Source of the DNA: Sialis fuliginosa
Lineage: Eukaryota; Arthropoda; Insecta; Megaloptera; Sialidae
Direction: 5' to 3'
Length of the DNA: 64,000 nucleotides
NCBI GenBank assembly: GCA_961205875.1
Contig: OY540810.1
Location: 15,624,001 to 15,688,000, forward strand
The notes beneath the pieces were generated by a model that ran no database searches, was not told the origin of the DNA, and worked only from the letters and a program-made list of their open reading frames with translations. Positions within the stretch are counted from its first letter, which is position 1. Each line of letters begins with the position of its first letter. Below are positions 28,331 through 36,842 of this stretch, piece by piece. The position numbers and the translations under genes are program-made.

Positions 28331-28854
28331 AAATGCATCCATAACAAAAAACATCAATCACGTATAGAAATTGTGTGTTTGTATAAAGAAAGAACTATAG
28401 GTACTTACCTACCTACTCCAGACTTCAAAATTTCATATATTACTCGATTTTTATGAACATTTATATAATTGATAAAAAAATTCTGTAGTTGTTTTGTATT
28501 TTTATTTTAATAGAAGAATATTTTACCTGAAATTCATTTGTTATATACAGGGTGTCCCATAAACATACCGACAAATTTTCAGGAGTTGTCGAGGACATTA
28601 AAATAATCGTTTTTTGTTAATAACCTCATGTCCACAAAAGTGTCGTTTTAGTAGTGGAGTAATAGAAAAGAACCCGCACAAAAGCAATGAATTTTGCCTT
28701 TTGTTTGAAATTTTTTGTGGAAATGATAGATAATGCAAAGAATAAAATAGGTTTGAATTAGTCAATGAATACAAAGGAATTTGTTGACATATTTTAGTTA
28801 GGCACTTTTTTATAAAATTAATAAATGTTATAAAAAAAATTATAAAAAAATATT

Positions 28855-30058: not shown

Positions 30059-30194
30059 AAGTTACAAAAAATTTCAACCAAAAGGCAAAATCCATTGCTT
30101 TTGTGCTGGGTCCTTTCTTTTGCTCTACTGCTAAAACGGCTTGCTTTAATATTTTAATGTTTTCAACAACTCCTGAAAAATACGGGACAGCCTG

Positions 30195-32900: not shown

Positions 32901-33472
32901 TATCACAGAAATCCGCTTCCACGAAAGATTTTCGTACGACTGTACAAAGGAACTGTTTGATGCACTTCAAGGAGAAAATGATACAGATATACGTATCAAA
33001 AATTAGATTAATATTAATAAAATTTTATTTTCAGGTATAATAGTAATATAATATAAGTTAATATATCGTTACTATAGTTAATATAATGAATAGCGTCCTA
33101 TGGCGAGTTCAGTGACCGCCAACATAATACATATATTTGACGTAATGTATTTATTTATTAATTTAAATAAAAATACAGCCCTCTTAAAAGGACTGTTTAG
33201 AAAACAGACAGACGTGAAAAGTACAAATTTACAAACTACAGATCTGTAAATTTTGATTTTTTCAAAATTCTCGAGAAAATTAGTCGTAACTTTTAAACGG
33301 GTGGTTGGATATGGTTTTAGTTGACAGATTTAAACTGAGCGTTTCAAAATTTATATAATGACATTTATAATACTTGAGAATTCGACAAACAATTTTGGTC
33401 AAAATTCGATGTTTTTTTCGATCTTCAGCAAAAAAACTTTTTTTTTAATTTAAAAGTATTATACATGTCATT
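32901..33472. other. AT-rich spacer
   Basis: No TIR partner was found. AAAAATTCTCGAGAAAATTAG-like short inverted words only. Confidence 0.3.
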
Positions 33473-33820
33473 TAGTCCAGTAACTTTATACATCACCGCA
33501 TGCGTTAAATCCGGTAGTTCTGATTTTTTGCAGACTTGTTTACGATGTTGGCCTAATGAATAATCCAAGTTTGTGACCTCGAGCGCCGAACGCAACTTTG
33601 TCAAAAATCGAAAAAACCGCGAAAAAATCGTTATTTTTTCAAATTTTGGCGATTATAACCCTAAAGGACTAGTTTTTGAAAAAACTTTTTTAGAACTTTT
33701 TTAAAGTAGATTAAATTTGCTACAATATGACACTAGAATTGTCTCTGTAGACCCAATAGTTTCCGAGATTAAGCCTTTCAAAGTTTATCATTTTTTTCGA
33801 ACTTCGCAATTTTTTGCAAT
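33473..33820. repeat. Left terminal inverted repeat
   Basis: 348 bp. It pairs with 35417-35775 over essentially its whole length with only scattered differences and small indels; the largest mismatch is near the outer end (about 33490-33500). Confidence 0.85.
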
Positions 33821-34016
33821 TCTGTCGTTCTGAATGAATTTTGACCCTGATTATACTATCGAAGCCCTGTACTTTTATGATGGGATGTTAAAAAAGAAAA
33901 TGAACGATGATGTTTAAGCTAAGTTACAAATAATGAAGTAAAAAAGATAAGTAAAACAAAAGTTAATAAGTTTATTTGTTAGGAAATTGAGTAATATTCA
34001 AAATCAAAAAATTAAA

Positions 34017-34318
34017 TTAATTTAGCCCTCTTGAAAGGTCCCGGTTGAGGTTCGTCCGTATCTGGACGTATTGGGATGGCATATCCCCATCAGGGGATGG
34101 TGATGAATTGTCGACGTCTTGTGCCCACAAGTCATCCTCCATTTCGACATCGGACAGATCGTCGCCTTCTGGGATATCTACTTCTGCAACATCAGGTATA
34201 TTGTCACAAGGTGTTGTGGGGCTGCATCTCTGGTCATCATTTTGGGGTTGAGGCCTTGTGGTGTGGATATCCACCCCCAGGAGAGAGGGTTCAGTGTGAC
34301 TCTCAACCACGCCTGTAC
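34017..34318 (-). pseudogene. 3' part of XPG-like transposon gene, frameshifted
   Basis: Exon b opens at 34318 after AAAG with VQAWLRVTLNPLSWGW, the segment that follows HSLRTY in relatives of this protein. The frame stops at about 34180 after APQHLVTIYLMLQK. In another frame 34017-34337 continues with a very acidic tail (DIPEGDDLSDVEMEDDLW). Related proteins, as I recall them, have a cysteine-rich segment before an acidic end. Here the cysteines are nearly all gone and the frame changes, so the gene is probably inactivated. Plus-strand frames over the same DNA are shadows. Confidence 0.6.
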
Positions 34319-34389
34319 CTTTAAGAAGATTGTACATGAGAATAGAAAATGATGAATGATATGTAACTGATGCAAGGACAAATTTTTAC

Positions 34390-34953
34390 CTGATGGTATG
34401 TCCGCAAGGAGTGAAATCGAGCAGAGTCTCGTGTAGGAAGTAACCTGGCTAGATTGAAGCTGGTTTTCGTCGCAGCCCTGGTGAATAGTTGGTACCGCAG
34501 CTCGTCAAAGTTATGGGTGTTGGAGTTGCCTCCGTATAGAGCAATTATGACTCGCTCTCCTGCTGCTGCTATCTCGTCAGGTGTAGAGTTGGTGTCGAGA
34601 AAAATCGCAGCTTGCTTTTCAACGTCCGGATTTTTTTCGACTATGGACATCATTTGCATCTTCCCTAAGCCAAAGAAGCAGGATGTCGAGTCACAACCAC
34701 TAAAGGCATGGATGAAGAGGAAAAGCTCTGGTTTCAAAGAGGATTTTGAAGAAGCGATGCTGGAATACATGACATCTGATGCTTTGCCTCTTCCACATTT
34801 ATTGTAAAAAATTTCACGTTGGTTTGAGATCGCAGTAAGGATGATCAGCAAGTCAATGTCCTCACCAACGACTACCACTATATCATAGGTAGAGGCAGCA
34901 GTTACAGCTGTAGTGTTGATGAGCCTATCAGCATCTTCCTCTGCTTGGAGTAC
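34390..34953 (-). pseudogene. XPG/FEN-like nuclease domain of a transposon ORF
   Basis: The frame reads from 34953 down to a CAG|GTAAAA donor at 34390, followed by a 71 bp intron and the exon at 34318. In order it contains VLQAEEDADRL, VVVVGEDIDLLIILT, FLFIHAFSGCDSTSCFFGLG and HSLRTYHQ. The order acidic E-x-D-A-D, D-x-D-L-L, G-C-D and G-x-G-K parallels the internal region of FEN1/Exo1/XPG nucleases, where these acids bind metal and the glycine-rich turn contacts DNA. The link to that superfamily is inference. An in-frame TAA lies just upstream (34954-34956), so the N-terminal half is missing. Without the splice the frame runs to 34321. Confidence 0.7.
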
Positions 34954-35123
34954 TTAGGCATGAAATTTTGGCTTTATAGTTCATCACCATACCATATAAT
35001 ATTTTAAATGTTCTGTTGTATTATAACTATTTAATAATAATAATAATAATAAATAGTGTATGCCAATAATAATAAATTAAATTCTAAGTTTATCTAAGAA
35101 GACAAAAATTAAAACTTTACCAG

Positions 35124-35268
35124 TTTATTTAATCTTAATCTAATATTACGTGACGACGATGTTGACATGTTTTCATTATCAGAGATAATTGTGAACGACT
35201 CACTAGAAGAGATCCTGGAAGATCCTGAAATGATCAACTCTATATTTAATGCTGTCTCTGTAACCACG
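35124..35268 (+). pseudogene. Possible opposite-strand exon in the long-TIR element
   Basis: After TTTACCAG an open stretch includes RDDDVDMFSLSEIIVNDSLE and EILEDPEMINSIFNAVSVTT, then a GTAAGG donor at 35269. The acidic, helix-like composition and flanking splice signals suggest an exon, perhaps the start of a second gene (an ATG lies at 35167). If unspliced it stops at TAG (35275-35277). The rest of such a gene is not visible before the right inverted repeat. I do not recognise the sequence. Confidence 0.35.
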
Positions 35269-35416
35269 GTAAGGTAGCAAAATAGATAAGATGGCGGAGC
35301 ACTGGGGACCAGTTGCTAGGTTCCGATTCGTGACTTCACACGAGCAATACTAGCACACTCCGTCGGAGGTAATTGGAACTTCATCCCGCTAGAGTTATTC
35401 GAGTGACGTCTAAAAT

Positions 35417-35775
35417 ATTGCAAAAAATTGCGAAGTTCGAAAAAAATGATAAACTTTGAAAGGCTTAATCTCGGAAACTATTGGGTCTACAAAGACAATT
35501 CTAGTGTCATATTGTAGCAAATTTAGTCTACTTTAAAAAAGTTCTAAAAAAAATTTTTCAAAAACTAGTCCGTTAGGGTTATAATCGCCAAAATTTGAAA
35601 AAATAACGATTTTTTCGCGGTTTTTTCGATTTTTGACAAAGTTGCGTTCGGCGCTCGAGGTCACAAACTTGGATTATTCATTAGGCCAACATCATAAACA
35701 AGTCTGCAAAAAATCAGAACTACCGGATTTAACGCATACTACCCCATACATTCAGGCGACAAAGTTACTGGACTA
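35417..35775. repeat. Right terminal inverted repeat
   Basis: 359 bp, the inverse of 33473-33820. It contains a short insertion relative to the left arm near its outer end (TACCCCATACATTCAGGCGA). Confidence 0.85.
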
Positions 35776-36842
35776 ATTATCATATGCGAGAAAAAAAAAT
35801 TAAAATTATTGAAAAACAAATATCAAACTTTTTTTTAATAAAAATAAAAAGCGAATCAAGTATCCCATACTCGATTTTATTATTTTTATACCTCAATCCT
35901 ACCCTGTACCATGTTGTACTATAAACACACCCAAATAATATTTGCATTCGAAAATTTCTATGTAGTAAAATGACAATAATGTTACTACCAGTTTTCTTTA
36001 TAGATCCTCTACGACCGGTGCTGTTGCTAGAGACTTTCATTTAAAAAGTAACGAAGAACGGAACTTCAGATAACTGAAGATGTTTGATAGTTACCGTTAC
36101 TACAAGAAAGGAGCGTTTACTATCATAATCCGGCTTGCATTAACGGAAAGACGACGACGTACAAAAATGATACCCTAGGTAATCGTATATATACCGTTAA
36201 GTAAGAACTTTCACGGGATTATATAATACTTGTTGTTACCCTCCGTGATAAATGTAAGTACATACTATTTAAATCTGAAACTGATTTTATGTATATAATT
36301 TATGCCGTTATTATCCGTTTTCGGTTGTAAGATCGTTTTCAAAAAGGTTTTCTACCGAGACGAATATTTTTTGTTTATACTTACATAATTTTATTATTAA
36401 TGGTAATTTACATAATTTTAAAACTACAACGGGTATTCAAAGCGTAATTATGTAATTATAAACAAAAAATTTGTATGACTGCTTCATTTAATAGGGTAGG
36501 TATTAATTTAGATTTTATAAATGGAAAACTATAAGACCTAGGACAAATTTTGTATAGTGAATTTGTAGGTAACAATATGACGCAATGAAATAATAATAAA
36601 AATACCACATATTATAGGTACTTTGGGAAAAAAATGTCATTTTCATAAAAAAATTTAAAAAAATAACTTTGATGAGCAATAACTCTAAACTGGAAACACG
36701 GCTTACAATAACGATAATATTGAAAAATATGTTAATTAATTACCTATGAAACTGATTCATTGTGATTGCTCTAGTTACGTTACTTTGGAAGTTATGAGAT
36801 AATCTTTGTTTATAAGTACTACTCTGAAAGAAGTTATTAAAC
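35776..36842. other. AT-rich spacer
   Basis: No recognised elements. The frame at 35780-36040 is in low-complexity DNA. Confidence 0.35.

Follow-up and report, generated by a model that had tools for sequence, protein, structure and literature searches.

The window, by which we mean the whole 64,000-nucleotide stretch of Sialis fuliginosa contig OY540810.1 that was analyzed, contains a transposon of 2303 bp at positions 33473–35775. It is flanked by ATT on both sides, read from the flanks as a target-site duplication with a left copy at 33470–33472 and a right copy at 35776–35778, neither assigned to a strand. The element starts TAGTCCAGT and finishes ACTGGACTA, and its outermost letters are TAGTCCAGTAAC...GTTACTGGACTA. 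Its inverted arms are about 350 bp long. The left terminal inverted repeat (33473–33820, plus strand) consists of an outer TAGTCCAGTAACTTT and a 321-nt core from 33500, and the right one occupies 35417–35775 on the minus strand. The core at 33500–33820 matches that at 35417–35737 in 315 of 321 positions. Outside the core, the 15 bp TAGTCCAGTAACTTT are common to both outermost ends, while the spacer between them and the core is unlike on the two sides and differs in length. An earlier sequence-only reading had placed two repeats of this size, with matching ends, at exactly these coordinates.

The 5' part of the element (34954–35416, minus strand) contains an open frame at 35109–35315 with no significant Pfam match, and among the matches listed for the transposase part described below, none falls within 34954–35416. 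Rfam and tRNA searches across the window returned nothing, nor did Pfam for three other open reading frames in the window. A short imperfect palindrome with 40-nt arms (78%) and ends AATGACAT/ATGTCATT lies at 33357–33472 and terminates precisely at the point where the transposon is inserted; it is perhaps a small inverted-repeat element that was used as a target. Elsewhere in the window, 75-nt inverted repeats at 28644–28718 and 30064–30138 are 88% complementary and 1345 nt apart, and are possibly another terminal-inverted-repeat element.

The Leftover of a Nuclease-like Gene

Between the arms lies what is left of a gene for an XPG-like nuclease. An exon at 34390–34953 on the minus strand encodes the C-terminal half, with the motifs EEDADRL, GEDIDLL, GCDSTS and GLGK; position 34953 is the start of the open frame and not a mapped 5' exon boundary. 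It is followed on the same strand by a 71-nt GT...AG intron (34319–34389) and a second exon (34178–34318), which was aligned to the protein of L062, a complete relative in the same genome. Support for the intron comes from the joined reading ...RTYHQ|VQAWLRVTLNPLSWGW, which aligns with the uninterrupted L062 protein ...RVYYQIQTWLGKDLEPQEWGW. The two exons give a reading of 234 residues that halts at 34178 because a deletion of 109 bp, with its junction at about 34208/34209 (no strand assigned), shifts the frame. The spliced minus-strand frame proposed previously is thus upheld as to its splicing but not as to its extent. In longer copies, the site of the junction is occupied by a cysteine-rich tail, ISCGCTKGCGNACSCRKAGLKCSSVCRHCSGASC. 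The 109 bp are present in L020, L023, L024, L031 and L053 and absent in the window copy, L012 and L016, where their loss eliminates the tail and puts the gene out of frame. Among longer copies that keep the tail, it is in frame in L020, L053 and L061 and not in L019. Beyond the junction, a remnant of the 3' end of the gene (34017–34208, minus strand) encodes an acidic C-terminus that is out of frame after the deletion; L020 and L061 are among the copies that read its residues in frame.

Alignment with relatives in the same genome shows that the window exon covers the second half of the nuclease-like domain and then the region before the cysteine-rich tail. Identity to L062, L063, L066 and L067 is 36–42%, with the acids of DAD, ExDxL and GCD in common. 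The frame begins in the middle of the domain, and the half that carries IDGG and VFDGY is missing. The sequence-only reading had reported motifs in the order found in FEN1, Exo1 and XPG; those of the second half are present, but nothing in the frame corresponds to the motifs of the first two FEN catalytic aspartates. A working FEN/XPG enzyme needs the complete set of metal-binding acids from both halves, and the window exon lacks that set. Judged by its sequence, the window copy is without a working nuclease.

Copies and Mobility in the Genome

The genome searched for copies was the species' own 392-Mb assembly of 20 contigs. The earlier reading had proposed such a search with the 348-bp arm, and the arm proved to be multi-copy rather than single-copy, with 98–100% identity in the best 40 of 166 candidates. 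A 39-base pattern taken from the left end matched the genome 80 times at three mismatches or fewer, 60 of them exactly, and its reversed control matched nowhere. The repetition of the arm is far above chance.

Target-site duplications were read from 31 distinct insertions in which the two ends could be read along with 30 nt of flank; copies with less flank were excluded. Of the 31, 29 carry an exact duplication of 3 bp whose sequence varies (the script printed every insertion in both orientations, hence 58/62), and none carries one of 4 bp. The two insertions without a 3-bp match are L045 and L046. By length, nine of the 31 fall at 2303–2305 bp, 16 at 2400–2430 bp and the other six at 1573–2360 bp. 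It is clear that this is a mobile element. Outside the genome, no relatives were found in viral contigs, genome contigs or phages. L055 and L056 carry a longer version of the window transposon, which measures 2865 bp and has additional internal sequence following the exon, and the exons of L054 and L057 are similar to those of these two.

A Complete Relative with a Putative Transposase

The most informative relative is the element at L062:657–6573 (C1:32995456–33001372). It is 5917 bp long, has the ends TAGCCCAGT and is flanked by a duplication of TAT. L062 and the window element share the end motif TAG(T/C)CCAGT and the 3-bp length of the duplication. A single uninterrupted open reading frame of 1551 aa encodes, in order, cysteine motifs recognized by eye, a region of 667 aa containing candidate catalytic acids, a full set of nuclease motifs (IDGG, VFDGY, DDAD, GEDIDLL and GCD) and a cysteine tail. 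IDGG and VFDGY are invariant in L062, L063, L066 and L067. The acids in the 667-aa region, also read by eye, are D495 and D661 (P0001 numbering) together with a conserved glutamate in IEQ(S/T)LM, and we regard this transposase part as a putative DDE transposase. The sequence-only reading had also advised looking for copies longer than 4 kb with an intact frame. The relative L062 is 5.9 kb long with an open frame, but within the window family itself the genome search recovered no autonomous copy.

Searching the genome with the transposase part, for which 66 of 74 candidates were scored, gave 11 places at 100% identity among the matches listed, each in a 1551-aa open frame and together spread over eight contigs. 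L062 is the one of the 11 that was fetched; another, C14:4314804, differs in its nuclease part. Identity over 667 aa at 11 places suggests recent activity.

The nuclease search gave 118 matches. Ten of these are second pieces of listed copies and were omitted, leaving 68 of the window family, defined by at least 88% identity, and 40 that are divergent. Among the matches listed, the transposase part is found within 6 kb of 26 of the 40 divergent nuclease matches and of none of the 68 window-family matches, the nearest being 28 kb away. The proposal that this protein family is mobile is borne out by the former figure and by L062, which carries both parts in one frame. At C14:5899332, whose identity to the window family is 42%, matches to the transposase part do adjoin. 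Since the search detected a transposase part beside a relative this distant, a window-family transposase beside the copies should have been seen. Longer window-family copies are therefore unlikely to exist, a judgment from the lack of transposase-part matches rather than from measured lengths. A more distant family is represented by L064 and L065 (C10:1153973 and C9:1231412), which are 94% identical to each other. Their nuclease motifs are EEAD, SDDTDVL and GQGK, with GCDTVS in L064 versus GCNTIS in L065, and neither has a listed transposase-part match within 50 kb.

Comparison with FEN/XPG Nucleases

Three profiles of the exon family were used in the comparison with known proteins. Profile A1, built from seven sequences, placed Exonuclease 1 first, with four of five hits and a best E value of 0.039, in an alignment that passes through VFDG, EDxDLL and SGCD. 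A3, a trimmed version of A1, again placed Exonuclease 1 first, with five of six hits, a best E value of 0.014 and the next different protein at 0.92. We take the Exonuclease 1 in these matches to be the human protein. With A2, in which four sequences were kept and the distant members omitted, Exonuclease 1 was not recovered, and spermidine synthase was the sole match.

Pfam found no match to the window exon or the L062 protein, and its XPG models were significant for no member tested. Individual members of A1 gave weak matches to ten Pfam families. Four of these families (XPG_N, NYN, NYN_YacP and PIN_4), which are all PIN-like, were each matched by one of seven members at E values of 0.035–0.16, XPG_N being the one at 0.16. 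The rest look unrelated, except for a CXC domain at E 5.1, which is compatible with the tail. The PDB search with the window exon returned an antibody chain at E 0.68 as its sole match, and with the L062 protein it returned nothing. PHROGs gave the A1 members weak hits without function. A single-sequence structure model of the window exon had a pLDDT of 35.5 and carries no confidence. Against a host XPG-like protein, a profile comparison gave a probability of 0.3% and E 0.19, which is not significant, with the GCD region paired with GSD. Pfam XPG_I finds four host places in the genome, all at other loci, and no transposon.

Of the view that the element carries an XPG/FEN-like nuclease, what stands is a weak but specific resemblance to Exonuclease 1 across the exon family; against it, profile A2 is negative, the Pfam XPG models are not significant, and the window holds the C-terminal half only. 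The acidic motifs of L062 are nonetheless collinear with those of FEN1, Exonuclease 1 and XPG, and Exonuclease 1 supplies the best of the weak profile hits. Unlike those proteins, the domain here falls below Pfam thresholds and is fused to a transposase-like protein, and the window copy keeps its second half only. It is likely, from these motif and profile comparisons, that the transposon nuclease is a remote relative of the FEN/XPG nucleases.

Placement among Known Transposons

The nuclease of AcademX elements is of the XPG type, and Academ proteins carry a Cys8 finger. In an excerpt of PMC10045372, AcademX is given, after Kojima 2020, as a lineage of the Academ superfamily with duplications of 3 or 4 bp, and AcademH has duplications of 9 or 10 bp; these lengths are linked there to the encoded nuclease of AcademX versus the helicase of AcademH. 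Excerpts of other papers give 3-bp duplications for Academ in an insect survey (PMC5199201), its presence in all arthropods investigated (PMC6327564) and a mean length of 5565 bp in bivalves (PMC10294476). A 2013 paper, as excerpted, attributes a RecQ helicase rather than a nuclease to Academ (PMC3627910).

The duplications observed here are of the AcademX length (3 bp in 29 of 31 insertions and TAT at L062) and not the 9 or 10 bp of AcademH, and the 5917 bp of L062 are near the Academ mean. Pfam matched no helicase in the L062 protein and gave no significant model for its transposase part. The elements resemble AcademX in the likely nuclease of the complete relative, in their 3-bp duplications and in having a complete relative of about 5.9 kb with inverted repeats; the window copy differs in having no transposase part, half the nuclease and no cysteine tail. 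AcademH belongs to the same proposed superfamily, but it has a helicase along with its longer duplications according to the PMC10045372 excerpt. The lineage is thus likely to be AcademX of the Academ superfamily, as identified by published descriptions and not by sequence. Because the comparison involved no Academ sequence, this label is likely rather than demonstrated. The sequence-only reading had assigned the element to a poorly described transposon group, which does not agree with the AcademX nuclease and 3- or 4-bp duplications already reported in the excerpt of PMC10045372.

Proposed Origin and Mobilization of the Window Element

Substitutions in the leftover exon were tallied as variants among 34 distinct copies, each counted once, and comprise 50 non-synonymous, 18 synonymous and 3 stop changes. 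The neutral expectation is 0.71/0.26/0.03 for these classes with transitions weighted 2, and the ratio of non-synonymous to synonymous changes relative to expectation is 0.89–1.15 across the weightings tried. The substitutions appear neutral, with no sign of selection. The exon is free of stops and frameshifts in 31 of the 34 copies, which were drawn from the best protein and arm match lists and are biased towards intact ones, and it is more likely that this reflects youth than constraint.

No transposase part lies nearby, half of the nuclease is missing, and the pattern of substitution is neutral; therefore, we interpret the window element as a non-autonomous deletion derivative that is moved in trans. 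In full, with a probability of roughly 0.78, it is an internally deleted DNA transposon whose master, likely of the AcademX lineage, encoded a protein with a putative DDE transposase and an XPG-like nuclease. Judged by the complete relatives, the missing master would encode one large protein, beginning with N-terminal cysteine motifs and continuing with the putative DDE transposase, the XPG/FEN-like nuclease and a cysteine-rich tail. Its transposase, acting in trans, would cut at the ends and insert the element with a 3-bp stagger. The source may be a master now lost from the assembly or a relative with a similar TAG(T/C)CCAGT tip. Our best guess for the nuclease in the complete relatives is a role in processing ends or flaps as the element moves. 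Copies devoid of the transposase part have amplified recently.

It is improbable that the complete elements form a superfamily separate from Academ, in which a DDE-type transposase and an XPG-like nuclease were combined independently. The want of a significant Pfam model for the transposase part would fit that account, as would an Academ membership argued from described duplication length, element length and nuclease. However, both lengths agree with the published figures, and the elements probably encode a nuclease. A bolder view would make the relatives a superfamily or deep lineage in which end processing and the 3-bp stagger are both due to the fused nuclease, while derivatives that have neither activity are efficiently mobilized in trans. 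We find this no less doubtful; the window element is probably an unremarkable addition to a transposon kind that is already known.

There is little chance that the short frame encodes something functional, such as a truncated nuclease with a regulatory or auxiliary role in transposition. Its intactness in most copies and the in-frame cysteine tail of several longer ones could be seen as signs of use, but non-synonymous, synonymous and stop variants occur at neutral proportions, the half with IDGG and VFDGY is absent, and the most uniform subfamily, which includes the window copy, has amplified despite losing the tail by frameshift. Least credible of all is the suggestion, also raised in the sequence-only reading, that the arms of a fold-back element enclose a captured fragment of a host XPG/FEN gene: a partial nuclease domain with an intron does sit between long arms, but the relatives are transposon-borne or adjoin the transposase part (26 of 40 matches), the four host XPG_I places are elsewhere, and the same domain is integral to full-length L062 with its matching end motif and duplication length.

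As a non-autonomous deletion derivative, the window element gives a place to an XPG-like frame that is odd in isolation, as the relic of a transposon protein. The chief value of the observation is that it points to more complete relatives. No direct test of the role of the nuclease domain in transposition was found in the literature searched, as far as the excerpts of it extend. The 11 places where the 1551-aa frame is open, perhaps recently active, would permit such a test.
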